A stretch of 64,000 bases of DNA from Nitrospira sp. Lineage in GTDB: Bacteria > Nitrospirota > Nitrospiria > Nitrospirales > Nitrospiraceae. Of the stretch, positions 1 through 18,609 are shown one piece after another. The number at the start of each line of letters is the position of its first letter. Positions within the stretch are counted from its first letter, which is position 1. Position numbers and translations under genes: made by a program. The notes beneath the pieces are model-generated. The model ran no database searches. It saw only the letters and a program-made list of their open reading frames with translations, and was not told the DNA's origin. The DNA is taken from positions 1 to 64,000 of the forward strand of contig JAHBWT010000010.1 in the NCBI GenBank assembly GCA_019636815.1, written 5' to 3'.

Positions 1-423
1 GTATTTTGCGATATACCCGTTGAATCGGCTGATCGCTTCGCCACAGGCATCGAGAAAACGTCGGATGGCCGTTTGGAGATCTTCAGGGTCCAACCGACGA
101 GCCAGTGCCGTCGAACCGACAAGGTCACAAAACATGACCGTCAGTTGGCGACGTTCCGCCTGACCTCGTTCGGAAAGGAACGGTTTCGTTTCCTGATCGG
201 TCGGAATGGGTAGAGGCTCCACATCATCGCCTTCACGGCCCTGCGGGAGTTGGGCGATGGCGCGCAAGATCTTTTTCCGATGACCCAGTAACACCCCTAA
301 GGTTGCGAGGTCCGTATCATTCAATTCTGGCAGGATGTCCCAGGTGATCGCATTGTGCTGAAACGCCTCGTGATAGCGGCCAAGACCGAGGCTTTCGAGC
401 CATGCTGAGACGCGGTCATTCAT
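1..423 (-). CDS. SAM-domain / class III adenylate cyclase-like protein, N-terminal part (runs off window)
   Basis: The reading frame is open from the ATG at 423 to the window edge (141 codons), so only the N-terminus is present. Residues about 1-60 read as a SAM (sterile alpha motif) domain: WLESLGLGRYHEAF followed by ITWDILPELNDTDL and LGHRKKIL. A short linker leads to RRQLTVMFCDLVGSTALA near residue 95, the first metal-binding strand of a class III nucleotidyl cyclase; the Asp of FCDLVGST is the expected metal ligand. Known proteins with this order usually continue into an AAA/NB-ARC ATPase and TPR repeats, which would lie outside the window. The Shine-Dalgarno is weak. Signalling role and cyclase activity are inferred from family resemblance only. 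Confidence 0.85.
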   Translation of the reverse strand, partial: MNDRVSAWLESLGLGRYHEAFQHNAITWDILPELNDTDLATLGVLLGHRKKILRAIAQLPQGREGDDVEPLPIPTDQETKPFLSERGQAERRQLTVMFCDLVGSTALARRLDPEDLQTAIRRFLDACGEAISRFNGYIAKY

Positions 424-4405: not shown

Positions 4406-6256
4406 TCACCCCACCTTCGATCTGGATCTGGCATCGAGCGTGCGATCGAGATTGAAGGCGGCGCTGATGAGAGCCAGATGCGTGAATGCCTGCGGAAAGT
4501 TGCCGAGCGCGTCGCCACTTGGGCCGATCTCCTCCGAATACAAGCCGACGTGGTTGGCGTAGCCCAGTATACGTTCAAACAGCAGCCGCGCCTCGCCCAG
4601 TTTCGCGCGATCGACACGCCCCGCTCTGGTCAATGCTTCGACCAACCAAAACGAGCACATGGTGAACGACCCTTCTTTCCCGTCAAGTCCGTCTTCTCTC
4701 GTTTCACTGTCGTAGCGGTACACCAACCCATCCGACACGAGGCCGCCGCGCTTCGGTGAACGATTAATGGCATCCAGCGTTTTAAGCATTCTCGGATCGT
4801 TTGGAGAGAGGAAAAACACGAGCGGCATGATGAGATTGGACGCGTCCAGCGACTCGCTGCCATAGTGCTGCACGAAGGCCTGGCGGGTGGCGCTCCATCC
4901 CTTCTCCATGATCTCGCCGTAGATTCGGTCCCTGACCTGAAGCCAGCGCGCGCGATCCGCGGGAAACGACCGCTTGTCGGCCAATCGAAGACCGCGATCC
5001 ATGGCGACCCAGCACATCAACTTGGAGTACACGAAATGCCGCCGGCCGCCGCGCACTTCCCAGATCCCTTCATCCGGCTGCTGCCAGTTCTCACACAGCC
5101 AATCGAGCCGCCGCCGGATGCTCGTCCACACTTCGTGCCCGATGGGCATCACGTATTTGTTGTACAAGTACAGCGCGTCCAGCAGCTCACCGTAGATATC
5201 CAACTGCAGTTGGTTATACGCGCCGTTGCCTATTCGCACAGGTCGAGACCCTCGATAGCCGTCCAGATGATCGAGCGTCTTCTCCGTGAGATCGTGGCGG
5301 CCGTCGATGCCATAGACGATTTGCAACGATCCATCCGGCGCCACCTCCCCCGCTCGCGCCTCCAACCATCTCATAAAGCCGACCGCTTCGTCGGTAAATC
5401 CGATCCGCAGCAGGCCGTAGAGGGTAAAGGCGGCATCCCGAATCCACGTATAACGATAGTCCCAGTTTCGGCCTCCACCGAGAGTCTCCGGCAAACTGCA
5501 CGTCGGGGCGGCGATGATGGCACCGGTCGGTTCGAACGTCAGGAGTTTCAGGGTGAGCGCCGAACGGGAGACCACTTCCCGCCAGCGACCGGTGTAGGTG
5601 CATTTGGACAGCCAGCGATGCCAATAGTTCACCGTCTGTTCGAATAGTGCGTCGGCCTCACCCATCGACGGAAAACAACCGCAGTTCTCATCCGATTGAA
5701 TGCCTCCGAGCACGAAAACCGCTGACTGTTCCTCGTGCAGGACAAAAACCGCTTCGGCGCCGCGATCGCCCGCCGCAAGTGGGATATCGGACGCGAGTCC
5801 CAAGCTGAGGCCGGCGGAGTGGAAACTGGCTCCTTGCTTGGTGATGATCGTGCGATGGGTTGCCCGCGCATAATCAAAGGCGGGCTGGCATCGCACGCGA
5901 AACTCCATGCTTCCCTGGGTCACTCTCACCCGGCGAATCAGCGAATGCCGCCACGCGGAATCGCTCGACAGACCGGGCGGCATGAAATCTTCGATTTCGG
6001 CGATCCCGCTCGCCGAGTAGAAGCGCGTCATCAAGATATTGGTGTCCGGCCAATAGAACTGTTTGGTCTTCACGTCCTCATGGGTCGCGACAATCTCGAA
6101 CCGGCCTCCTTTCTCGTGATCAAGAATGGCCGCGAAGACGCTCGGGGAGTCAAAGTGCGGAAAACAGAACCAATCGATCGATCCGGTCATGCTAACGAGC
6201 GCCGCCGTGCGCATATTCCCGATGATGCCGTAGTTTTGAATCGGCTGGTAACTCAT
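4406..6256 (-). CDS. Glycoside hydrolase family 15 protein (glucoamylase/trehalase type)
   Basis: A 616-residue cytoplasmic-looking protein. The N-terminal beta-sandwich begins with [19 protein letters not shown] and [18 protein letters not shown]. The (alpha/alpha)6 catalytic domain contains [19 protein letters not shown], a candidate acid glutamate in DEGIWEVRG and a candidate base glutamate in [21 protein letters not shown]. This arrangement matches bacterial GH15 enzymes, several of which are trehalases; the family also includes glucoamylases. There is no signal peptide, so an intracellular alpha-glucoside such as trehalose or a short glucan is the likely substrate (inference). The ATG at 6256 overlaps the stop of the upstream efflux gene (ATGA). 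In-frame starts at 6274 and 6292 are possible. The ROK kinase follows 4 bp after its stop. Confidence 0.92.
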
Positions 6257-7686
6257 CGCTTCGTTTCTTTCCATTGTTGAGACAATGCCCATTCCTGTCC
6301 CTGTTCACCGGGCGACCAACCGCCACCCAAGGCTTTGTACAGCTGGACCACCGACGTCAGGTATAGGCGGCGAGTCGTCGCGAGCGCCAACTCCACATCG
6401 AACAGGTTCCGTTGCGCGATCAGCACGTCCAAATAGTTCGCGAGACCGCCCTTGTATCGGAGATTCGCGAGGCGAAGGGCCGTTTTCAACGCACTGACCT
6501 GCCTCTCCTGAGCAGCCGCCTGCTCCCGCGCAGTACTGACGCCTGCCAGCGCGTCTTCAACCTCCTTGAACGCAACGAGGATCGTCTGCTTGTATTGGGC
6601 GACCGCTTGCCTGGCTTGAGCTTCGGCGGCATGTTGTTGAAACCCGAGACTCTGGGCATTCAGGATGGGACCGATCAGAGTCGGACCAAGGACCTCGAAA
6701 TCTCCTCCGGATGCGAAGAGTTTGGACAGGCTGGGATTCGCGATGCCGAGTAGCCCCGTGAGGGAAAGTTTTGGAAAACGATCGGCTTTGGCGGCTCCGA
6801 TCCTGGCCGTCGCCGCAGCCAACTGCTGCTCAGCCTGTACGACATCCGGTCGCCGCTGCAGCAATTCTGACGGGAGGCCGGCGGGTACGACCGGCGGCAC
6901 CACTTGGTCGGTCAGCGATTGCCCTCTGGAAATCTGACCGGGATTCCTCCCTAACAGCAGGCTCAACTCGTTTTCTTTCTGAATCGTTTGGCGCTTGAAG
7001 TCCGCGATGCGCGCCGCCGCGTTTTCTCGCTCGGCTTGAAACTGTTCAACATCCAGCCCGTGAATCAACCCTTGCCGGTGGCGCGCTTGGCTGATTCGCA
7101 CCGACTCATTCCATGCTTTCAACGTGCGTTCGGCGATCTCCAGTTGCAGGTCGAACTGCCGAAGGTCGAAATAGGCCTGAGCCACCCCTCCAACCAGCTG
7201 CAAGACCATCGCGCGCCGGTTTTCTTCCCGAGCCAGCAGATCACCGCGAGCCGCCTCGTTCGACCGCCGGATCCGTCCCCACACGTCGATTTCCCAGGCG
7301 AGATTCCCCTGCAAATAATAGTTGAATGGGTTGGGGAATCCCGGAATGCGGGCGCCGCCGTGCCTGACTAAAGGGCCGTTGACCGTGCCCGTCATTTGAG
7401 GAATATAGTCGGTCCTCGCGATGAACAATCGCGCCTCAAACTCTTCGATCGTCGCCACCGTGCGCTCGAGATCTTTATTTTCCTCCAATGCGATCTCGAT
7501 GAGTTTCCGGAGTTCCGCGTCTTGATAGAGTTCCCACCACGGCATATTGGCGAGAGACGGCAAATCAGCCGCTTCCTTAGCCATGCGAAACGAATCGTTG
7601 GTAGGAATATCGGGGCGCGAATAATCGGGCCCCACCGCACAAGCGAGCAGCAGGCCCGAAAGCCCCAGCAGCGAGAGGATACGCAT
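6253..7686 (-). CDS. RND efflux outer-membrane lipoprotein (NodT/OprM family)
   Basis: A 477-residue outer-membrane factor with a lipoprotein signal ([16 protein letters not shown], lipobox LLAC). It is followed by the family start [11 protein letters not shown] and two outer-membrane efflux repeats, including [18 protein letters not shown] and, later, [19 protein letters not shown] and [19 protein letters not shown]. It should trimerise into a beta-barrel plus periplasmic alpha-tunnel that accepts substrates from the RND pump. It begins 2 bp after the pump stop and overlaps the GH15 start by 4 bp, so it belongs to the same transcript. The substrate is not deducible. Confidence 0.95.
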
Positions 7687-7687
7687 A

Positions 7688-10600
7688 TTAAAGCCCTACC
7701 TCCCCGGACACCGGTGCAAGTCCGGTGCGGTCTTTTCCGATTCCGTCCTGTTGGCCAGGTCCGGTCGTAGGCTTCCCCAACATTCGGATCAGCATGAAGA
7801 ACAAGGGGACAAACAAGACAGAAAGAATCGTCGCGGCGATCATCCCTCCGAATACACCCGTACCGATCGAATGCCGACTGGCCGCACCGGCCCCACCGGC
7901 GGCAACCAAGGGCACCACGCCGAGAATAAACGCCAATGAGGTCATGAGGATGGGGCGGAACCGAAGACGCGCCGCCTCGATCACCGCATCCCTCAATGGA
8001 AGGCCGTGCGTGTATCGTTGATTCGCGAACTCCACGATGAGAATGGCGTTCTTGGCCGAAAGCCCGATGAGCGTGACGAGGCCGATCTGGAAATAAATAT
8101 CGTTGGCCATCCCCGACGACCACACCGCCGACAATGCGCCAAACACGCCGAACGGTACGGCCAGGATCACGGCAAACGGGACACTCCAACTCTCGTACTG
8201 AGCCGCCAGCACCAAGAACACCATGAGTAAGCCGAATCCGAACGCGAGAACCGACTGGGAGCCGGCCTTACGCTCCTGGTAGGAAATGCCGCTCCAATCG
8301 ATGTCGAACCCCTGAGGAGTCAATACCTCTTGCGCCACTCGCTCCAACGCATCGAGCGCCTGGCCTGAACTGTAGCCCGGCGCCGCTGAGCCCAGAACAA
8401 GAGCGGTATTGAACCCATTGAAGTGGGTGACGGGATCAGGCCCGCTGGAATAGGTCGTCGTGACCACTGTGTCGAGCGGGATCATCGCCGGCTCTCGACC
8501 AGTCAATGCCCGAACGTAGATCTTGCCGATATCGGCCGGGCGCGATCGATACTGAGGCTCCGCTTCGGTCTGGACCCGATAGACACGACCGAATTTCACG
8601 AAATCGTTGATGTACAGGTTTCCGAAATAGGCCTGAAGCGTGTCGAACACTTCGGAAATAGGCACTCCGAGCGCTTTGGCTCTCTCTCGATTGATCTTGG
8701 CGTGCACTCGGGGCGCGCTCACGCGAAAACTGGTACTGACCGCCCCGATCGCCGGGTCCTGCCTTGCCTTTTCGACGAACTCCTGAGCGACCGCGCCAAA
8801 CTGTTTAAAGTCCCCGCCGCTCGGGTCCTGGAGCTGCACGGAAAATCCCCCGGTGGCGCCCAGACCGCGAATCGAGGGAGCATTGAACGCCAGGATCAGC
8901 GCGCCGGGGATCTGCGCAAACTCCTTGAACGCGCCCCCGATAAGAGTCTTTACATTGTCCTGCTGGCTCTTCCTTTCATCCCAGTGTTTGAGGGGCGCGA
9001 AGAGTGTCGCCGTATTGGTTCCTCTGGTATTGAAGACGAAGTTCTGTCCCGACAGCGCTTGTGTTCCGTACACCGCGGGCAGGGTATGATAATACTGCTC
9101 GACCCGATCGAGGACCGCGTCCGTCCGTTTTTTCGACGCCCCATCCGGCAGCTGAACGACGGTAATAAAATACCCCTGGTCCTCCTCCGGCAAGAAGGCC
9201 ATGGGAATCAGCGTAAACAATTTCACCGCGATGCCGATCACGATCCCGCACAGCGCCAGCGAGAGGACCATGTGCCTCAACGTGAAACTCACGCTTGTCG
9301 CGTACCGAATTTTGACCCACTCGAACAGCCGATTAAACAGTCCAAAGAACCCTTTGCGTGGCCCATGGCTCGGCTTCAGCACCAGGGCGCAGAGAGCGGG
9401 GCTGAGCGTCAGCGCGACGAACCCTGAGATCGCGACGGAGACCGCGATCGTGATCGCAAACTGTTTGTACAATTGGCCGGTGATACCCCCGAGAAATCCC
9501 ACAGGCACAAAGACCGCGCACAGCACCAGCACAATGGCGATCACGGGACCGGCCACCTCCCCCATGGCCTTCTTGGCCGCGTCCTTCGGGGACAGTCCTC
9601 CCGCCATGTGGCGCTCCACGTTTTCCACGACCACAATGGCGTCATCCACCACAATCCCGATGGCGAGCACCAAGCCGAAAAGGGTGAGGGTATTGATCGA
9701 AAACCCGAGAGCCGCCATCCCCGCAAAGGTGCCGATCAGCGAGACTGGAACCGCCAAGACGGGAATCAGGGTTGCGCGCCAGCTTTGGAGGAAGAGATAC
9801 ACCACCAGAACAACCAAGACCATGGCTTCTCCCAAAGTCTTGACCACTTCCTTGATGGAGACGTCGACAAAGCGGGTCGTGTCGTAGGGAATATCGTAGG
9901 TGACACCGGGCGGAAAGACCTTGGTAAGTCTGTCCATTTCCCCTCGGATTCGCTTGACCGTGTCGAGGGCGTTCGCGCCGGGCGAGAGAAAGGTGAGAAG
10001 CAGCGCGGTGGGCTTGCGGTTATAGCGGCCTTCGAGCACGTAGGATTGCGCCCCCAACTCGACCCGCGCGACGTCTTTGAGACGAACCATCGACCCGTTC
10101 GGCATCGCTCGAACGATCATGTTCTCGAATTCGCTCACGTCGGACATGCGCCCGTCGGCAAAGAGCGGGAGGGTGAGCTCCGTGGAGATCGGCATGGGTT
10201 CCCGTCCGACGGTTCCGGCGGGAAAGTCCCGGTTCTGTTCGCGTACGACATTCGAGATATCGGTCGGCGTCAGACCCAACTGTGCCATGCGCACCGGATC
10301 GAGGACCAGGCGCATGCTGTAGTTCTGTTGTCCGAAGACGAGCGCATCGCCGACTCCGGGCAGCCGCTTGATATTGTCGAGAATGCGCAGGATCGCGAAA
10401 TTCGAGAGGAAGAGCGCATCTTGCTGCGGGTCGTCGGAGCGGAGCACCATGACGGTCAGCAGGTCCGGCGACATTTTCTTAACGGTCACTCCTTGGCGAA
10501 TGACTTCCGGCGGAAGCTGCGGCTCGGCCAGCTTCTGGCGGTTCTGCGCCTGGACTTGCGCAATATCGACGTTGGTGCCGATTTCGAAGGTTAGCTTGAT

Positions 10601-10870
10601 GGTCATGTGACCGTCGTTCGTACTTGTCGAATCGAAGTAGAGGAGGCGGTCGATCCCGGGAAGCTGCAACTCGATGGGGCGGGCTACCGACTCCGCCACG
10701 ACCTCCGCGCTCGCACCGGGGTAATCGGCTTCGATCTGTACCACCGGAGGAGTGATTTCAGGAAATTGAGCGATGGGGAGGGTCAGCATCGCCACCAAGC
10801 CCACCACCACGACGACGATGGAAAGGACCGAGGCAAAAATCGGCCGGTCGATGAAAAAACCGAGGTTCAT
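7688..10870 (-). CDS. RND multidrug efflux permease (HAE1/AcrB type)
   Basis: A 1060-residue inner-membrane pump. The start at ATG 10870 is set by the conserved opening NLGFFIDRPIFASVLSIVVV and the 4-bp overlap with the adaptor stop. The proton-relay residues of hydrophobe/amphiphile-type pumps are present: the Asp pair in GIVVDDAIVVVENVERH (TM4) and the Lys in GLSAKNAILIVEFANQR (TM10). Two large periplasmic loops and twelve predicted helices fit AcrB/MexB/MexF relatives. The missing GxxxD heavy-metal signature argues against a CusA-type metal pump. Long apparent frames on the opposite strand here come from codon bias and were ignored. Confidence 0.96.
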   Translation of the reverse strand: MNLGFFIDRPIFASVLSIVVVVVGLVAMLTLPIAQFPEITPPVVQIEADYPGASAEVVAESVARPIELQLPGIDRLLYFDSTSTNDGHMTIKLTFEIGTNVDIAQVQAQNRQKLAEPQLPPEVIRQGVTVKKMSPDLLTVMVLRSDDPQQDALFLSNFAILRILDNIKRLPGVGDALVFGQQNYSMRLVLDPVRMAQLGLTPTDISNVVREQNRDFPAGTVGREPMPISTELTLPLFADGRMSDVSEFENMIVRAMPNGSMVRLKDVARVELGAQSYVLEGRYNRKPTALLLTFLSPGANALDTVKRIRGEMDRLTKVFPPGVTYDIPYDTTRFVDVSIKEVVKTLGEAMVLVVLVVYLFLQSWRATLIPVLAVPVSLIGTFAGMAALGFSINTLTLFGLVLAIGIVVDDAIVVVENVERHMAGGLSPKDAAKKAMGEVAGPVIAIVLVLCAVFVPVGFLGGITGQLYKQFAITIAVSVAISGFVALTLSPALCALVLKPSHGPRKGFFGLFNRLFEWVKIRYATSVSFTLRHMVLSLALCGIVIGIAVKLFTLIPMAFLPEEDQGYFITVVQLPDGASKKRTDAVLDRVEQYYHTLPAVYGTQALSGQNFVFNTRGTNTATLFAPLKHWDERKSQQDNVKTLIGGAFKEFAQIPGALILAFNAPSIRGLGATGGFSVQLQDPSGGDFKQFGAVAQEFVEKARQDPAIGAVSTSFRVSAPRVHAKINRERAKALGVPISEVFDTLQAYFGNLYINDFVKFGRVYRVQTEAEPQYRSRPADIGKIYVRALTGREPAMIPLDTVVTTTYSSGPDPVTHFNGFNTALVLGSAAPGYSSGQALDALERVAQEVLTPQGFDIDWSGISYQERKAGSQSVLAFGFGLLMVFLVLAAQYESWSVPFAVILAVPFGVFGALSAVWSSGMANDIYFQIGLVTLIGLSAKNAILIVEFANQRYTHGLPLRDAVIEAARLRFRPILMTSLAFILGVVPLVAAGGAGAASRHSIGTGVFGGMIAATILSVLFVPLFFMLIRMLGKPTTGPGQQDGIGKDRTGLAPVSGEVGL

Positions 10871-12060
10871 TTCGACGGTTCCGCGCCGCCGATGACCGGC
10901 GGTGGAGGCGTATCGGATATTGTCGAGGCAACCGTGACGGGCTTGACTTGGGCTCCGGGCATGACTCGTTGAAATCCCTCCACCATGACCCGTTCCCCGG
11001 CACGGAGCCCTTCCTCGATGAGCCACCGGTCTCCTTGCCAATCCGTCGCCTTCACGTCTCGAGCTTCTATTTGGTCGCTCTGACTGACGACATAGACGAC
11101 CGCCCCCTTTGGTCCCTGCTGGACCGCGCGCTGCGGAACAAGGATGGCATCGGGCTTCGAGACTCCATGAAAGCGCACGGTCACGAACTGGCCGGGCAAC
11201 AACACCCGATCGGGGTTCGGGAAAACCACCCGCGCCTGCCGGGAGCCCGTCTCGGTCCGCAACCCTATATCCGCAAAATCCAACACACCGTCATGATCAT
11301 AGGTCGTTCCGTCCACGAAGATGATGGTGCCCGTCAAACTGTAGATCCCCGGATGCTGAATCCGTTTCGAAAGAGTGTCCCGCCGCCGTTTGAGGAGAAA
11401 ATTCTCCGGCGCGCTCACGATCACGTACATGGGATCGACTTGATGAATGACGGTCAGGAGGTCCGTCTGCGCGGTGACCAGCCGCCCCTGGTAGTAGCGC
11501 GTTCTCTCGATCAAGCCGTCGACCGGAGCCACGATGAGCGTGTTGTCCAGATCGAATTTGGCCTTGACCAGATCCCCTCTCGCCGCCTCCAGCGAGGCCC
11601 GTGCGGCAAGATCTTCCGCGATCGCGTCGTCGACGTCTTTCTGACTGACGGCATCTTCGACGAGCAACGGCTTGACGCGCGCCAGATTCTGCTTGGCCTG
11701 GACGACCCGCGCCTCGGCTTGCGCGACTCGTCCCTTCGCGCTCGCGAATGCCGCCTGGAAGGGCACAGGATCGATCTCGTAGAGACGATCGCCTTGTTTG
11801 ATGTCGCGTCCCTCGGAAAAGAAGCGTCGCTTGATGATTCCGGTGACTTGCGGACGGATCTCGACGATGCTCGACGCTTCGGCTTGCCCGATAAACTCCG
11901 GTTCATCAGGAACAGTCTGAGAAATGATTTCGACGACCTGGACTTCGGGGATCGGGCGAGGCGCCGGAGAGCCGGCTTCGCCCTTGCACCCGAACAAGCC
12001 GAGCGCTCCCATCAAAAAAACACCGCCTAACGCAAGTCTCTTTCGGATCGTCTCATTCAT
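10867..12060 (-). CDS. RND efflux periplasmic adaptor (membrane fusion protein, lipoprotein)
   Basis: A 397-residue adaptor from the ATG at 12060. It has a lipoprotein signal (ALGGVFLMGALGLFGC). The barrel-sandwich half-motifs are VEIRPQVTGIIKRRFFSEGRDIKQGD and VDGLIERTRYYQGRLV, the latter after a coiled-coil hairpin (VAQAEARVVQAKQNLARV). The C-terminal beta-barrel and membrane-proximal domains are present (VLLPGQFVTVRFHG). It is the first gene of the adaptor-pump-outer-membrane-factor-GH15-ROK chain and overlaps the pump start by ATGA. No regulator gene is adjacent, and the 127 bp upstream show no convincing promoter. Confidence 0.95.
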   Translation of the reverse strand: MNETIRKRLALGGVFLMGALGLFGCKGEAGSPAPRPIPEVQVVEIISQTVPDEPEFIGQAEASSIVEIRPQVTGIIKRRFFSEGRDIKQGDRLYEIDPVPFQAAFASAKGRVAQAEARVVQAKQNLARVKPLLVEDAVSQKDVDDAIAEDLAARASLEAARGDLVKAKFDLDNTLIVAPVDGLIERTRYYQGRLVTAQTDLLTVIHQVDPMYVIVSAPENFLLKRRRDTLSKRIQHPGIYSLTGTIIFVDGTTYDHDGVLDFADIGLRTETGSRQARVVFPNPDRVLLPGQFVTVRFHGVSKPDAILVPQRAVQQGPKGAVVYVVSQSDQIEARDVKATDWQGDRWLIEEGLRAGERVMVEGFQRVMPGAQVKPVTVASTISDTPPPPVIGGAEPSK

Positions 12061-12187
12061 GACAGTGCGCGCCCACGGACGCCCAGTATGACCTACCGAA
12101 TTGCCGATCCTCAAGAGTGACCTCAAGCGGGCAGGCTGATCGGGAGGCGACGGTCTCGCCTCACCGGCCAGGGCACTGGGAATCGGG

Positions 12188-14203
12188 CTAGGATTGTTCC
12201 ACCAACCAGCGCAGCATTTTCTCCGACCGAACGATGCCGATCAGACGTCGATCGCCCTTGTTCTCGACTACCGGAAGCCAGTCGATATCATGCTTATTCA
12301 TCAAGTCGCCAACCATCAAGCTCATATCGTCCGGAGTAACCGTGATGGGGTCCATCCGCATGAAATCCCGCACCTTGGTGGACGGTTTCTTCCCTTGCGC
12401 GAAGACTTCAAACAATTCATTCCTGGTGACGATTCCTTCCAAACATCCCTTTTCTTCTACAACGGTCAGATATTCGACCGCATGCTGGTCAAACATGCGA
12501 ACGGCGTCTTCAAACGTGTCCTCAGGAGAAAGGCGGTGAGCTGGGACCGCTTCCATAAATGTGACCAGCGGTTGACGCTCGAGAGCGGTCCACGCGTGGC
12601 TCAAGTGCCGGTTCAATCTGGGTCGCCGCCACCTCAGCGCCTGCGCGATGAGATGACGGAAGGGCGTCAGCGCTCCGGAAATTTGCGAGAAGACTTCTTT
12701 GCCCATCACGAGCACCTCGACCACCGTGCGGGCGCGGACACTCCCGATGCGGACAGTACCGTCAAGAAGCGCAATTTCTCCGAAAAACTCTCCCGGCCCG
12801 AACACCGCCACGAGGTGCTGTTGTCCCGTGGAGTCGCGCCGGAGAACTTCGACCTCGCCCTGTTCGATCACGTAAAAACTCATCGCCGGTTCGCCTTCGA
12901 CAAAGATAAAGTCGCCGGACCGATAATGGGCCCGTGCGACCCGTTCGGTCTGATTGCCCCTCGGATGGGCCAGGTCTCGTGGAAAGAACAGTTCCCAGGT
13001 CCAATCGAACGCGACTTTGACCCGGCGGGACCAAGAGGGCGATTTCAGCAGATAGACGGTTCGCCACAGCCACCAAGCCGGAAACCCGGAGAGGCGTACG
13101 CCCAAAATTTCTGCGACCGCCTTTCGCTCTCCGATCCCGCACAGTTGTCCCAACGGCTTAAAGAAGAACGGCCTGGTGGATTCACCATGCAAGACCCGAA
13201 TGATGTTCTCCGCTGCTTGCCGCCCTTGCCGTTCGGCAAACTGGCCGGTCGTCGGTGAGGTATCGCCGTCATAGGTGTTCACGATATGGGCGCAGTCGCC
13301 GACCGCCCAGAGGTTCGACGTGCCGCGCACGCGCATATCCGGATCGGTACGCAGTCGACTGCGTTCCTTGGGCGCATCAAGCCGGTGTACCAAAAGCGGT
13401 GCCGTGGTGCCGATCGTGCAGACGACCGTGGCACCGCGGAGCATTCGACCGTCATGCAGCTCGACCCCCTCGGCTGTCGCCGACACCACGCGCGCACCGA
13501 GTAACACATGAATGCCGGCCTGCTCCATCTTCGTTCGAGCGAACTCGCGCAGGGTCTGGCTCACTTCCGGCAAAATCTGATCGCGGCTGTGCGCCAACGT
13601 CACCGTGACGTCACGGGCACTGAAGTTGCTGTAGAATCGCGCGCTGGCTCTGATCAAGTCGTTGATCTCGCCGGCCGCCTCCACACCGGTGAAGCCACCG
13701 CCGACCACCACGAAGGAGAGATACCACCGTCGCCGCTCTGGATCGTCGCAGACTTCGGCTTTTTCAAGTTGCTCCATCACGTGAAACCGTAAAGCCATGG
13801 CATCGCCCACGGACTTCAGTGGAAACGCATGGTCGGCCATACCGGGGACTAAATTCAGATTGACCACAGTCCCGCAGGCCAACACGGCATGGTCAAAGGC
13901 CACGCGACCTAGACGACCATCGTATCTCTCGTATTCCACCTCGGACGCAGCCAGGTCGATTTGACGGACCCCTTCCGTTCGACAGCGGACTCCGGGCAGC
14001 ATCTGACGCAACGGCGCTGTGACGGCACCGGGGTTGATCGCGGCGCCGGCCACTTCGGCCAACAACGGATAGAACACCATGTTGTTTTCCTGGCTGAACA
14101 ACACGATTTCGCAGGTGTTCGCCGACAATCTCTTCCGTAGAGTCTTTGCGCACTTCACCCCGGCAAATCCACCGCCCACTATGATGATCCGTGTCATACC
14201 CAT
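12188..14203 (-). CDS. NDH-2-like FAD/NAD(P)H dehydrogenase fused to cNMP-binding and CBS domains
   Basis: A 671-residue multidomain protein. Residues 1-about 400 are a type II NADH dehydrogenase-like flavoprotein: the FAD loop IIIVGGGFAGVKCAKTL at the start, the NAD loop FVVVGGGFTGVEAAGEIND and the FAD-ribityl motif LWAVGDCAHI. A hydrophobic stretch around FPAWWLWRTVYLLK may contact the membrane. Residues about 415-530 form a cyclic-nucleotide-binding (Crp-type) domain with YVIEQGEVEVL and PGEFFGEIALLDG. Residues about 545-671 are a CBS pair (HAVEYLTVVEEKGCLEGIV and DIDWLPVVENKGDRRLIGIV). NDH-2 alone is about 400-430 residues and transfers electrons from NADH to quinone. The added modules suggest control by a cyclic nucleotide and adenylate charge (inference). 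The start could also be the ATG at 14197. Confidence 0.93.
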   Translation of the reverse strand: MGMTRIIIVGGGFAGVKCAKTLRKRLSANTCEIVLFSQENNMVFYPLLAEVAGAAINPGAVTAPLRQMLPGVRCRTEGVRQIDLAASEVEYERYDGRLGRVAFDHAVLACGTVVNLNLVPGMADHAFPLKSVGDAMALRFHVMEQLEKAEVCDDPERRRWYLSFVVVGGGFTGVEAAGEINDLIRASARFYSNFSARDVTVTLAHSRDQILPEVSQTLREFARTKMEQAGIHVLLGARVVSATAEGVELHDGRMLRGATVVCTIGTTAPLLVHRLDAPKERSRLRTDPDMRVRGTSNLWAVGDCAHIVNTYDGDTSPTTGQFAERQGRQAAENIIRVLHGESTRPFFFKPLGQLCGIGERKAVAEILGVRLSGFPAWWLWRTVYLLKSPSWSRRVKVAFDWTWELFFPRDLAHPRGNQTERVARAHYRSGDFIFVEGEPAMSFYVIEQGEVEVLRRDSTGQQHLVAVFGPGEFFGEIALLDGTVRIGSVRARTVVEVLVMGKEVFSQISGALTPFRHLIAQALRWRRPRLNRHLSHAWTALERQPLVTFMEAVPAHRLSPEDTFEDAVRMFDQHAVEYLTVVEEKGCLEGIVTRNELFEVFAQGKKPSTKVRDFMRMDPITVTPDDMSLMVGDLMNKHDIDWLPVVENKGDRRLIGIVRSEKMLRWLVEQS

Positions 14204-14574: not shown

Positions 14575-15021
14575 TTACAGGCGCAGCGGCTTGATGGGCG
14601 AGATGACCGCTTCCGGATTGTTCCTCCACACCGACTTGTCCGCATCCACATAGAGTTCCACTTCGTTCCCGTCAGGATCCTTCAGATAGAGACTCTGGCT
14701 CACCGTGTGATCGCTCATACCGTCGATCGAGATCCCTGCTTGTTCCAACTCCCGCTTGGCCTGACGCAGTTCATCGAGACGGTCACCGATTTTGATGCCG
14801 ATGTGGTAGAGACCCCGTCGCCGCCCTTGCAGCGGTCCCGGAGCGTCGCCGACTTGGATCAAAAGCAGCTCATGGTGCGTGCGACCGGACGTGAGCGCAG
14901 CGGCCGCCCCGTTGAAAACCTTTCCCACTTCTTCGAACCCGAGGAGTCCCCGATAGAAGGCCAACGACCGTTCGAGATCTTTCACATAAAACACGACATG
15001 GCCAAGGTAATGGGCTTTCAT
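14575..15021 (-). CDS. Glyoxalase/dioxygenase-like VOC family protein
   Basis: A protein of about 148 residues with one vicinal-oxygen-chelate fold. The opening HYLGHVVFYVKDLERSLAFY places the first metal His. GLYHIGIKIG gives the second, and LYLKDPDGNEVELYVD provides the Glu ligand of the extradiol-dioxygenase/CatE-like group. The exact substrate is unknown. The start is taken at the ATG at 15021 because AAGAGGTG lies at good spacing before it; a GTG at 15030 that overlaps the upstream stop is the alternative. It is the last gene of a minus-strand run of small stress or detoxification proteins. Confidence 0.87.
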   Translation of the reverse strand: MKAHYLGHVVFYVKDLERSLAFYRGLLGFEEVGKVFNGAAAALTSGRTHHELLLIQVGDAPGPLQGRRRGLYHIGIKIGDRLDELRQAKRELEQAGISIDGMSDHTVSQSLYLKDPDGNEVELYVDADKSVWRNNPEAVISPIKPLRL

Positions 15022-15026
15022 CCGAC

Positions 15027-15437
15027 TCACCTCTTGTTCGGAATAGACTGCTTCAGCAATGCCTTGACCGCCGCGTGCTCCAGCACCACATCGGGACTTC
15101 GCTGAAGCGCGTCGTGATACTGCCTGCCGAATCCCTCCCCTTCTTCCGTCGGCGTCACGAGCGTCTGGACGGACGCGAGCAGGGCCGGAAATCCCTCACG
15201 AGCTGACTCATCCGCCTCGATTAATTCATCGAGATTGGCTATCAGCTGGGACAGCGGGCGCAACCAGGCGAACCAGGCATCATTCAACACCAACTGCAAG
15301 AATGCTCCATTGGATGGGATACGTCCATGCACGCGCTCATAGGAGCCCCGCTCGTCGTCCAACAAGGCTTTGTGCAGGCGAAGAAGGGCGCGAAACAGAT
15401 CGTCGAGAAAGACGTCTCTCTTTGTGTGCTCCCACAT
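15027..15437 (-). CDS. Conserved hypothetical protein
   Basis: A 136-residue soluble, helix-rich protein (MWEHTKRDVFLDDLFRAL start, later FLQLVLNDAWFAWLRPLSQLI and DELIEADE). I remember similar unannotated proteins but know no function, so this is left as hypothetical. There is no signal peptide, cysteine motif or transmembrane helix. It sits between two small enzyme-like genes with short gaps (5 bp downstream, 19 bp upstream), which supports co-transcription with the VOC and SnoaL genes. Confidence 0.8.
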   Translation of the reverse strand: MWEHTKRDVFLDDLFRALLRLHKALLDDERGSYERVHGRIPSNGAFLQLVLNDAWFAWLRPLSQLIANLDELIEADESAREGFPALLASVQTLVTPTEEGEGFGRQYHDALQRSPDVVLEHAAVKALLKQSIPNKR

Positions 15438-15456
15438 GATGAACGCGCGTACCTCT

Positions 15457-15843
15457 TTATCGTTTTAAGCCCGTATCATAATAAAATCGCTCGTGGATGA
15501 TCTTGCCGTTCCTCCACTTGGCGACGGAGACCTGCTCCATATGGACCGCTTGGCCGTTGGTCTCGATGAAGTCCAAGGTACATTCGTAGAACGTCACGTC
15601 GGCACCCACGGCCGAGGCCGTTACATTGAACCCTTTCCACTCTTTCACGCCGCTCATGAACTGTTTTTCCCGTTCGATGTTGGCAGCAAGACCCACCGTC
15701 GGCGGATTGGCGTTATCTTGCATCACCGTGCCCTTGTCGTAGAGCTCATTCATGGCCTCGATGATCTTGCCTTGGCGAATAGAGCCGAACAGGTCGTTTA
15801 ACCGTTGCTGAAGATTCTGTGTGCTCATGACCGGCTCTTTCAT
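15457..15843 (-). CDS. SnoaL-like / nuclear transport factor 2-fold protein
   Basis: A 128-residue protein of the NTF2-like fold. It has an N-terminal helix pair (LQQRLNDLFGSIRQGKIIEAM), ELYDKGTVMQDNANPPTVG, and a C-terminal beta-sheet with VAKWRNGKIIHERFYYD, which is typical of SnoaL-like polyketide cyclase relatives. Such proteins act as small isomerases, hydrolases or ligand-binding proteins; the substrate is not deducible. The first ATG (15843) overlaps the stop of the VOC gene upstream (ATGA). A second in-frame ATG at 15828 is an alternative start. Confidence 0.85.
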   Translation of the reverse strand: MKEPVMSTQNLQQRLNDLFGSIRQGKIIEAMNELYDKGTVMQDNANPPTVGLAANIEREKQFMSGVKEWKGFNVTASAVGADVTFYECTLDFIETNGQAVHMEQVSVAKWRNGKIIHERFYYDTGLKR

Positions 15844-16259
15844 TTGTTTTTCGACGCGAACACAATTCCTGCCTTCTGCACCTCCTGATAGGGCAGAAGC
15901 CAGACCAACGACTCATCACTGAGATCCCCGACTTGAATCCGATTGCCCCAAGGGTCACGAAAGTCGCAGCGAAAATCCGGATGGAGCTTCAACTTGTACT
16001 TCTTCGTCAGTTTGTTGCGCACTTCCTGGATTTGTTTGGCGTCGCGAACCATAAGTCCGAAGTGTTTGGTGCGATCAGGCTGTAATTCATCCACTTCAAA
16101 AATTGCCATAAACTGATGCTCGCCGAGTTTGCACCAAGCAGTCCCTTCACCTCCGCGGAGCATTTTCAGCCCGAACACATCCTGATAGAACTTGACCGCT
16201 TTCTTGGCATCGGTGACTTCGATGACGACGTGATTGCAGCCATATACTTGAACGGCCAT
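15840..16259 (-). CDS. VOC family protein (glyoxalase-like)
   Basis: A 139-residue VOC-fold protein. CNHVVIEVTDAKKAVKFYQ begins the first beta-alpha-beta-beta-beta unit and DFRDPWGNRIQVGDL closes the second. The usual terminal Glu ligand is replaced (NRIQV rather than NxxEL), so metal dependence is uncertain. It could be a binding protein rather than an enzyme. It overlaps the SnoaL gene by 4 bp, and about 28 bp separate it from the heme-binding-like gene upstream. Confidence 0.87.
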   Translation of the reverse strand: MAVQVYGCNHVVIEVTDAKKAVKFYQDVFGLKMLRGGEGTAWCKLGEHQFMAIFEVDELQPDRTKHFGLMVRDAKQIQEVRNKLTKKYKLKLHPDFRCDFRDPWGNRIQVGDLSDESLVWLLPYQEVQKAGIVFASKNK

Positions 16260-16287
16260 GATTCCCCCAGTACATTTTCCCTTACGG

Positions 16288-16836
16288 TTACTTCGGTTCC
16301 TGGAATTTCATCGCCGCGCCGATACTATCCAAACCTGCCTGGGCGCAGGCGGCATCCAAATGTCCCCCCGGCGCACCGCCGACGCCGATCCCACCGACGA
16401 CTTCGCCGGCGATATCGATCGGTAATCCTCCGGCGAGAAACAGAATTTTGTCATTCATATGTTGCAGCCCTTGAACCACTGGTGTCTTGGCGATGAGCTC
16501 GGCGACATTCGCTGTCGGTCCGCGCATGCTCGCAGCCGTATAAGCCTTTTTCTGACTGCTTTCGACGGTATGCGGCCCAGCAGCATCGGCCCGCATGAAC
16601 GATCTCAAGATCCCGGCCCGATCGACGACCGCCACGCTGACGCGATACCCGTCTTGAGCGCATTTATCCAGCGCAGCTGAGGCCGCTTTCCCCGCCAAAG
16701 ATAACGGCAACACCGTTTCACGCGGCAAGTCCTCCGCTCGGGCGCTAGAGGGAAAGAGCCCCACCAGCATCGCCGCACCCAGCAGTCCACAGGCACATAA
16801 TTCCCTCATGGGATGAAATTCGCGATTTTCCCTCAT
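16288..16836 (-). CDS. Exported GlcG/HbpS-like heme-binding family protein
   Basis: A 182-residue protein with a cleavable Sec signal (LLGAAMLVGLFPSSARA, cleavage near AEDLP). The GlcG/HbpS fold follows: YRVSVAVVDRAGILRSFMR, then a region rich in SQKKAYTAASMRGPT, and IAGEVVGGIGVGGAPGGHLD. Characterised HbpS members bind heme and sense oxidative stress outside the cell. GlcG members are of unknown function. A very strong site (GGAGGAGGG) precedes the ATG at 16836. An ATG at 16809 is a weaker option. The export signal makes a periplasmic role likely. Confidence 0.88.
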   Translation of the reverse strand: MRENREFHPMRELCACGLLGAAMLVGLFPSSARAEDLPRETVLPLSLAGKAASAALDKCAQDGYRVSVAVVDRAGILRSFMRADAAGPHTVESSQKKAYTAASMRGPTANVAELIAKTPVVQGLQHMNDKILFLAGGLPIDIAGEVVGGIGVGGAPGGHLDAACAQAGLDSIGAAMKFQEPK

Positions 16837-16970
16837 CCTTCCCTCCTCCGTGAATGAAGTCGCTGCTTTCTGCTCCTATCGTCCGCCGTGTGACGCGAGT
16901 ACGCCGGCAATCATCTCTATCAGGCTACCACTTGCAACAGCAGGACGCACAGACGCAGAGCCCAGAGTCA

Positions 16971-17639
16971 CTATCGATGCGTCGTCTTCTTCTCAGAACC
17001 AGTCGCTATCCGCTGGAAGACCTCGAGAAACGCCTCCGGACGTTGCGCCCCTGAGATCGCATACATATCGTTCAAGACAAAATATGGAACTCCCCGAATG
17101 CCCATCTGGTGGCCTCCCGCTTCTTCTCTCTTCACTTCTGCAATTCCTGTTTCACTCGCCAAGAACAACTCGACCTCTTTTGGCTCCAACCCTGCTTGTT
17201 TCGCCTCTTTCGCGAGGGTCTGGGCATTCCCGATGTCGTTCCCTTCCACGAAATATGCTCGAAAGAGCTCTTCCACCACGGCATCTTGTTTTCCCTGGCG
17301 TCCGGCATACCAGATCAATCGATGGGCCAGGAACGTATTTGGTGTCCTGGCGATCTTGTCGAAGGAAAACGGTATCTGCTCGGCCCTTCCCGCTTCCAGC
17401 AAACGTTCCTCCATTTCCTTGAAGGCAGCCAGGCTGCCGAACTTGGTTTCAAGATAGACGGTACGATCCATCCCGTTCTGCGGCATGGTCGGATTCAACT
17501 GAAATGGTCGCCATTGAATATCGGTTTTGACGCTACTTCCCAGTTGCTGCAGTGCCCGTTCAAGCCGTCGCTTGCCGACATAACACCAGGGGCAGACGAC
17601 ATCGGAATAGACTTCGATCTTGAGGTTCTGCTCGATCAC
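16971..17639 (-). CDS. DsbA-family (FrnE-like) thiol oxidoreductase
   Basis: A 222-residue cytoplasmic protein. It opens with IEVYSDVVCPWCYVGKRRL, a thioredoxin-fold CPWC active site with the CYVGK signature of the FrnE/2-hydroxychromene-2-carboxylate-isomerase-like subgroup of DsbA. A helical insertion follows, and the end GIRGVPYFVLNDMYAISGAQ carries the cis-Pro loop. Relatives include polyketide-linked and stress-linked oxidoreductases (FrnE of Deinococcus is a cytoplasmic disulfide isomerase). No signal peptide is seen. It lies in the same orientation as the neighbouring stress-type genes. Confidence 0.92.
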   Translation of the reverse strand: MIEQNLKIEVYSDVVCPWCYVGKRRLERALQQLGSSVKTDIQWRPFQLNPTMPQNGMDRTVYLETKFGSLAAFKEMEERLLEAGRAEQIPFSFDKIARTPNTFLAHRLIWYAGRQGKQDAVVEELFRAYFVEGNDIGNAQTLAKEAKQAGLEPKEVELFLASETGIAEVKREEAGGHQMGIRGVPYFVLNDMYAISGAQRPEAFLEVFQRIATGSEKKTTHR

Positions 17640-17751
17640 GAGAGGTGTCCCATCCGTTCGGCTTGGTCGTCTTGGGTCGCTTGAACTAGTTCATCTTTCA
17701 TATTCATGATAAATGGCAGTGATGATATCCGCCGCCATGCTCGCCTCATTT

Positions 17752-18609
17752 TTATACCATCGCCCTTAATGCTTCGGCCAAGGTCACGTGCCCTCGCACC
17801 AGCGACGAAGGCTGTTCGTAGTCAATGGTGCTTCGAGAAAATGCAGCATACATCTCTTCGAACAGTTGCGCCGCCTCGTCGGAGAACCCGAACGACTTGA
17901 ACGTCGGCACCACCGCGCTTAACGGAGCATGCTGCGCGGTGACTTTTTTGCCGAGAATCGCGCCGAGCGTGTCTGCGACCTGATCCGGGCTATACTCCTC
18001 CGGCCCCGCCAGTTCCAGCACCCTCCTGCCTCGTTCACCGGCCGACAGTTGCTCCGCTCCGATCCTGCCGATGTCTTTGGTCGAAATCATCGGGATCTTG
18101 ACCTGAGGCGCGAGAAACGTCGGCAGGATCCCCTGCGCCTTCGCCGCACCGATGACTGGCGCCCAGTTCTCCACAAAGTAGGCAGGACGGAGGATGGTCA
18201 GACGTTCGGCACTATAGCCGAGCACACGCTCGCCATAACTCGCGGTTCGAATCGGGCCGGTCGCTCCTGTCATGTGTCCGGCAACCGACGACAGAAATAC
18301 AACATGTTGAACCCCGCTTTTCTTGACCGCCTCTGCCGCGCGATCCATTCGGAGATGTTGATCCGAAAGCCAGGCCGCGGCCCCATAGTTCGGCGGCAGC
18401 ATGAGATAGACGCCCGTCGCTCCGTCGAAGGCTTTGATCAACGCCGACACATCGTCGAGCGACGCAACGGCAACTTCCGCCCCTTTCGCTTTCCAGCTAG
18501 CCCCCTTTTCAACCGTGCGGACGAGAACCCTCACGGGTTGTTTTTTGCTGAGTAAGGTCTCCACGACCACTGATCCCGTATTCCCAGTGGCCCCTACGAC
18601 AACAAACAT
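17752..18609 (-). CDS. NmrA/atypical SDR NAD(P)H-binding protein
   Basis: A 285-residue atypical short-chain dehydrogenase. It has the N-terminal dinucleotide loop FVVVGATGNTGSVVVETLL, a discriminating Arg region (VRVLVRTVEKGASW) and VYLMLPPNYGAAAW, and lacks the YxxxK catalytic pair. These features match NmrA-like and NAD(P)H:quinone oxidoreductase-2-like proteins that sense or reduce quinones. An AAGGAGGG site lies at ideal spacing before the ATG at 18609. It is the first gene of the 14575-18609 minus-strand run, with a 15-bp palindrome 32 bp upstream. Confidence 0.9.
   Translation of the reverse strand: MFVVVGATGNTGSVVVETLLSKKQPVRVLVRTVEKGASWKAKGAEVAVASLDDVSALIKAFDGATGVYLMLPPNYGAAAWLSDQHLRMDRAAEAVKKSGVQHVVFLSSVAGHMTGATGPIRTASYGERVLGYSAERLTILRPAYFVENWAPVIGAAKAQGILPTFLAPQVKIPMISTKDIGRIGAEQLSAGERGRRVLELAGPEEYSPDQVADTLGAILGKKVTAQHAPLSAVVPTFKSFGFSDEAAQLFEEMYAAFSRSTIDYEQPSSLVRGHVTLAEALRAMV

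Follow-up and report, generated by a model that had tools for sequence, protein, structure and literature searches.

Domain layout and neighbourhood of the fusion gene

The window, i.e., the whole stretch of 64,000 nucleotides that was analysed, corresponds to contig C2 of a 4.01 Mb Nitrospira genome (G000; 95% complete). On its reverse strand, at positions 12188-14203, lies a complete gene for a protein of 671 residues in which an NDH-2-like flavoprotein is followed by a cyclic-nucleotide-binding domain (CNB) and a pair of CBS domains, as indicated by the open reading frame, by Pfam and by relatives. The reading frame occupies these positions exactly, with an ATG start and the stop codon included. 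The first domain is Pyr_redox_2 (residues 5-327; 13223-14191, reverse strand, like all the following features of the gene; Pfam E 3.4e-40), predicted from residue counts and fold to bind FAD and NAD(P)H and carrying the motifs GGGFAG, GGGFTGVE, GD and GQFAERQ, the last being a quinone motif of the AQxAxR type. It is followed by NDH2_C (residues 352-410; 12974-13150; E 4.4e-11), the membrane-interacting C-terminal domain of NDH-2 enzymes. The CNB (cNMP_binding; residues 426-508; 12680-12928; E 4.5e-23), also recognised by its fold, contains the phosphate-binding-cassette motif FGEIALLDGTVR (residues 474-485; 12749-12784) with E476 and R485. Finally, a tandem CBS (Bateman) module spans residues ~546-670 (12194-12568), as defined by Pfam, alignment and fold, with the motifs GIVTRNE in CBS1 and GIVRSEK in CBS2; Pfam detects CBS in two stretches (E 1.5e-17; best 611-668). 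All Pfam matches of the fusion protein exceed the curated cut-offs.

Pfam scans of 63 aligned proteins, among them the window protein, detected no helix-turn-helix family. In CRP/FNR transcription factors a helix-turn-helix follows the CNB, whereas in the fusion protein this place is taken by CBS. The initial annotation had proposed an NADH dehydrogenase-like flavoprotein with complete cNMP and CBS modules and without a helix-turn-helix; the composition is borne out by Pfam, reading frame and relatives, and the missing helix-turn-helix by the Pfam scans.

Directly downstream of the fusion gene, a tripartite RND efflux pump (membrane fusion protein, pump and outer-membrane factor) is encoded at 6253-12126 on the reverse strand. 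An operon with this pump was considered as a clue to function and rejected, since none of 13 readable Nitrospira-family regions has a pump immediately after the gene (a fourteenth, L116, was unreadable). Besides the window, just L037 and L038 have pump parts within 1.2 kb downstream, with L037 carrying another type. Across the 74 loci described below, conserved neighbours are lineage-specific only and lend no support to a function. On the other side of the gene, positions 14575-18609 (reverse strand) carry small detoxification-type genes, assigned by Pfam as glyoxalase, SnoaL-like, HbpS-like and NmrA-like, together with a second glyoxalase-like and a DsbA-like gene recognised by eye.

Distribution and age of the fusion

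The full-length fusion occurs in 18 of 175 genomes of the same GTDB family (71-100% identity, the window's own genome counted), the 17 others carrying the whole protein at 71-88% identity; a nineteenth genome, G125, has a copy in two pieces. Intact copies are also found in single-contig genomes of the family. The other matches in these genomes (E<=1e-60) are NDH-2-only proteins with ~34-38% identity. Moreover, a scan of a named collection with one genome per species returned 74 loci with relatives, with labels from no fewer than eight groups of phylum rank: Nitrospira, Dadabacteria/Thermodesulfobacteriota, Verrucomicrobia, Lentisphaera, Acidobacteria, Planctomycetota, Melainabacteria/Obscuribacterales, Ignavibacteria, plus a few more whose labels are at odds with their tree position. 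By their titles nearly all of these records are metagenome-assembled or uncultured. The nearest named relatives are Nitrospira, and most relatives from other phyla are ~44-60% identical to the window protein. Such identities of the whole fusion, together with the 71-88% within the family, are those of neither a chance event nor an assembly join: the fusion is real, old and deeply conserved.

Alignment A2 contains 63 rows, namely 62 of the 74 loci and the window protein. Left out of it are seven cut, short or fragmentary loci (L057, L067, L101, L105, L107, L108, L109), two with a broken frame (L094, L106), L097 with its stretch of N and, for no particular reason, the intact L095 and L100. According to Pfam, Pyr_redox_2, NDH2_C and cNMP_binding are each present in all 63 proteins and CBS in 58 of them, so that the search for the combination Pyr_redox_2, cNMP_binding and CBS, proposed as a check in the initial annotation, finds all of them in 58/63 scanned proteins. 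Removal of the five CBS-less members gave alignment A3 of the sensor half (58 proteins). By tblastn, a CNB is found in 72 of the 74 loci, the misses being L105, where the contig end cuts the gene, and L109, a fragment. Because the scan patterns fall within the flavoprotein region, they could also have picked up members devoid of a CNB; no intact CNB-less member is present among the 74 loci.

In a quick tree, the fused proteins form one group separate from 13 NDH-2-only proteins. The five CBS-less members nest inside the CBS-bearing group, in a region of weakly supported forks. A CBS-less ancestral form was considered and set aside, as the nesting suggests, within the limits of those weak forks, that CBS was lost. 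A different C-terminus supposed for L097 turned out to be a run of N. At L109 (8001-8588, from a KSB1 metagenome-assembled genome) the family sequence stops after its first 162 residues (69% identical) and gives way to unrelated sequence, as in a broken gene or a chimeric contig. Other loci stand out by their labels: L041 (labelled Nitrococcus) groups with Nitrospira, L068 (labelled Betaproteobacteria) groups with Acidobacteria, and L106 (labelled Magnetospirillum; frame-broken and outside the tree) has neighbour genes common to Opitutaceae loci. All three come from metagenome-assembled genomes, and either mislabelled bins or gene transfer may account for them.

Conserved sites of the two halves

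In the enzyme half, an acidic residue at the nucleotide-site position discussed below favours NADH in Rossmann-type enzymes. The NDH-2 features counted on A2 were drawn from a survey of the family (PMC5299459). Both GxGxxG motifs are kept (G10, G12, G168, G170 and G173 in 63/63; G15 as 58 Gly and 5 Ala), and so are the catalytic glutamate of GxGxxGxE (E175 in 63/63, the counterpart of E172 of S. aureus) and the GD pair (G302 and D303, 63/63). In the Y/F-D pair, Tyr is present in 46 and Phe in 16 of the 63 proteins, with D104 in 62. The quinone motif takes the form xQxAxR, with Q321 and A323 invariant (63/63) and R325 in 62/63. Its first residue is Gly in 55 and Ala in 8 proteins, so that the literal AQxAxR occurs in 8 at most and the window protein, with GQFAERQ, is not one of these; the forms given for NDH-2s in the survey are AQxAxQ, AQxAxR and APxAxQ (PMC5299459). 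According to the same text, the Trp of the WxxG motif near the NADH adenine is found in 99% of NDH-2s (PMC5299459). Here the motif is replaced by CxxG (C262 in 59/63, G265 in 62/63). Furthermore, the acidic position of the NADH site, Glu or Asp in solved NDH-2s, is a His in the whole family (H205 in 63/63, with S206 in 57/63 and R207 in 49/63).

From a structural perspective, the AlphaFold2 model made on A2 (mean pLDDT 84.3; pTM 0.61; the packing between domains is not fixed by the model) has NDH-2s as all of its 27 best Foldseek PDB matches, with TM 0.76-0.90 on the target over ~400 residues. The solved NDH-2s, such as those of Caldalkalibacillus thermarum (4nwz) and S. aureus (5na1) and yeast Ndi1, have in common with it the fold, the GxGxxG motifs, E175, GD, the AQxAxR-type motif and NDH2_C, whereas the fusion protein adds CNB and CBS and differs in CxxG, in the His at the NADH site and in the Gly that starts the quinone motif. 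Of the residue and domain features tested, all but WxxG were found, consistent with an NDH-2. Chains of FSP1 are among the matches of the nucleotide-binding half, and the nucleotide site of the fusion protein may resemble that of FSP1. The replacement of the acidic residue by His and of WxxG by CxxG means that NADPH is a possible donor. Hence, of the description as 'NADH dehydrogenase-like', the NDH-2-like part stands, while NADH, given the His-Ser-Arg at the nucleotide site, is one possible donor next to NADPH. In the window's genome, two other NDH-2-like genes keep Glu and Trp. They stand in tandem (G000:C132:1927-4601), share 32% and 29% identity with the fusion protein, and combine Glu at the NADH site with a quinone motif of the variant form G(I/V)APVA.

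In the CNB, G475 and E476 of the cassette are invariant in A2, and R485 is kept in 55 of 63 proteins, including the window protein, which has all three residues; the 8 CNBs without this phosphate Arg have His (6) or Tyr (2), and the residue after the Arg position varies widely. The PDB entries matched first by a profile of the sensor half (A3) are PKG and PKA; SthK ranks lower. In the sensor-half model (pLDDT 84.7; pTM 0.54, the packing of the domains again being left free), the CNB matches cAMP-bound CRPs by Foldseek; c-di-GMP-responsive CLP and cAMP-independent trypanosome PKA are also among its matches. A helical linker of low model confidence (residues 510-531) connects the CNB to the CBS pair, which matches ST2348 (TM 0.80 on the target) and AMP/ADP-bound AcuB. 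The nucleotide signature of CBS domains is G-h-x-T/S-x-x-D, where only CBS1 of the pair keeps the usual adenine-nucleotide form: in A3 its T-x-x-D/E has Thr in 52/58 and Asp in 46 or Glu in 10 of 58, Glu being the residue of the window protein, whereas CBS2 has Arg instead of Thr in 53/58. The initial annotation made conservation of the ligand residues in homologues a test of nucleotide control; they are conserved in the CNB and in CBS1 and changed in CBS2.

Concerning the source of a cyclic nucleotide, a search with PF00027 detects a single cNMP domain in the window's genome at E<=0.001, namely the CNB of the fusion (the next match has E 0.81), and the fusion CNB is the only one detected in 4 of the 19 fusion-bearing genomes. 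At the edge of the window (positions 1-423, reverse strand), sequence and relatives reveal the N-terminal part of a gene of the class III adenylate cyclase type, truncated where the contig ends, with a SAM-like N-terminus (recognised by eye) and the initial third of the class III cyclase domain; the 'cyclase-type protein' annotated there is real. The remainder of the gene is probably at the start of contig C67, where the only PF00211 match of the genome lies. In 8/8 homologous loci from six relatives, a single frame runs through this junction and joins both parts, and this SAM-cyclase-ATPase gene, apparently split by the assembly (1-423 and G000:C67), is one frame of ~1,140 residues in relatives. 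Together the two pieces show the metal-binding Asp pair and the Lys, Thr, Asn and Arg positions, which presumably are the canonical adenylate-cyclase catalytic sites. In some relatives, two genes of this kind lie near each other; the window's genome apparently has one, with two copies being possible. In the six relatives, cyclase and fusion lie on different contigs or ~480 kb apart, in agreement with the earlier suspicion that their 12 kb spacing is coincidental.

The presence of one cNMP domain and apparently one cyclase in the same genome revives the link between cyclase and fusion at the genome level. However, fusion and class III cyclase are not associated among the 175 same-family genomes (15/19 against 112/156; Fisher p 0.60), and four of the 19 fusion-bearing genomes yield no match to PF00211 with the limit relaxed to E 10, including G131 and G006, which are 99-100% complete. 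No class I cyclase was found in these four genomes nor in the window's genome (5/5). CYTH-family proteins, not assigned to a class, are present in three of the four (G131, G006 and G105), that is, in 3/5 when the window's genome is included. The fusion genomes without class I or III cyclase suggest that cAMP alone does not account for all members, or that an unrecognised source exists.

Proposed function, alternatives and related systems

On the basis of architecture, fold and conserved sites, we propose with moderate confidence that the fusion protein is an NDH-2-type oxidoreductase that uses FAD, is bound to the membrane and passes electrons from NAD(P)H to quinone, under the control of cyclic and adenine nucleotides through two modules of the same chain; the reaction from NAD(P)H to quinone, the ligands and their effect are all inferred in this way. 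The CNB would bind a 3',5'-cyclic nucleotide, with cAMP as the likeliest candidate, and AMP, ADP or ATP would bind the CBS pair at its single site with the standard signature, in CBS1. The NDH2_C region contacts the membrane in solved NDH-2s, and the CNB directly follows this amphipathic domain, so that its movement on ligand binding would reach the quinone entrance or the docking to the membrane. The modules would thereby set the activity of the enzyme or its access to membrane quinone, in either direction. This suggests that a cyclic-nucleotide signal and the energy state of the cell could directly switch the electron flow into respiration.

Some relatives of CRP and PKA bind other small molecules, and the same gated enzyme might sense through its CNB a ligand different from cAMP and cGMP, such as a nucleoside or dinucleotide. 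This would agree with the fusion genomes lacking a recognised class I or III cyclase, with the 8/63 proteins devoid of the cassette Arg and the variability of the residue after it, and with the fold matches to CLP and trypanosome PKA. It appears unlikely, since Gly-Glu in 63/63 and Arg in 55/63 make up a cyclic-nucleotide signature, true cAMP/cGMP receptors are the best profile matches, an adenylate-cyclase-type gene is found in the window's genome and CYTH-family proteins occur in three of the four cyclase-less genomes. Even less probable is that the two modules have lost ligand binding and act as a scaffold for dimerisation, which is common for CNB and CBS domains, or for positioning at the membrane; the loss of T-x-x-D from CBS2 and the five members that manage without CBS point in this direction, but ligand residues without an evident function in a scaffold persist in different phyla at ~45-60% protein identity.

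A further alternative concerns the enzyme and is compatible with the gated NDH-2 proposed here: the protein may mainly be an NADPH-dependent quinone reductase, serving antioxidant functions or quinone cycling and not the respiratory entry of NADH, with the sensors gating that reaction. The His-Ser-Arg in place of Glu/Asp, the Cys in place of Trp in 59/63 proteins and the retention of Glu and Trp in the two other NDH-2-like genes of the genome speak for it, as does the precedent of an NADPH-using NDH-2, S. aureus NDH-2B, described as an NADPH:quinone oxidoreductase (PMC11302666). Nevertheless, dinucleotide preference is not safely readable from sequence and fusion-free relatives also vary at the nucleotide site, which makes this a serious but tentative option, held at somewhat less than even chances. 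An artefact, be it a chance fusion, a mis-assembly or a misannotation, can be regarded as refuted: although the public relatives are nearly all metagenome-assembled or uncultured by title, the gene is intact in 18 same-family genomes, single-contig ones included, and all four domain types recur in 58/63 proteins across phyla.

NDH-2 is usually regarded as an ungated, non-pumping electron bypass, and Nitrospira lives on thin energy margins. If the gated NDH-2 is real, its wide occurrence would let bacteria directly control how respiration is divided between energy-conserving and energy-wasting routes, and a thin-margin Nitrospira would be a natural setting for it. As a more speculative and rather improbable extension, the sole cNMP receptor of the window's Nitrospira might be a respiratory enzyme, with cAMP acting on the quinone pool and not on transcription and with CBS reading the energy charge, while across uncultured phyla a separate class of doubly gated NDH-2, perhaps NADPH-using, might open and close a non-pumping electron entry within seconds.

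The initial annotation knew of no NDH-2 with such modules, and this still holds: a full-text literature search, whose coverage leaves out most subscription journals, turned up no account of an NDH-2 carrying CNB or CBS. In plants and protists, NDH-2s with EF-hand insertions are regulated by Ca2+; they too are NDH-2s with a fused ligand-binding module, but ligand class, position and module differ. Bd1971, SthK and the mycobacterial Pat are gated by their fused CNB. These proteins (Bd1971 EAL, 6hq4; SthK; Pat acetyltransferase), which are among the profile or fold matches, likewise join a prokaryotic effector to a CRP-type CNB, but the effector is unrelated to NDH-2 and the matches lack a CBS pair. 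COG2905 comprises signalling proteins of the type CNB-CBS-CBS-DUF294, on which the full-text search found no paper; they show the same order of CNB and CBS pair, with a nucleotidyltransferase-like effector in place of NDH-2. The family survey published in 2017 restricted itself to sequences free of fused domains (PMC5299459); this rule of selection, which is no functional requirement, may explain why the fusion went unnoticed. A thioredoxin-reductase-type flavoprotein from the Red Sea ATII (PMC6544261) combines, like the fusion protein, a pyridine-nucleotide-disulfide oxidoreductase fold with a CNB; in this class-II thioredoxin reductase the CNB is N-terminal, and the portion of the paper at hand names neither CBS nor NDH2_C.
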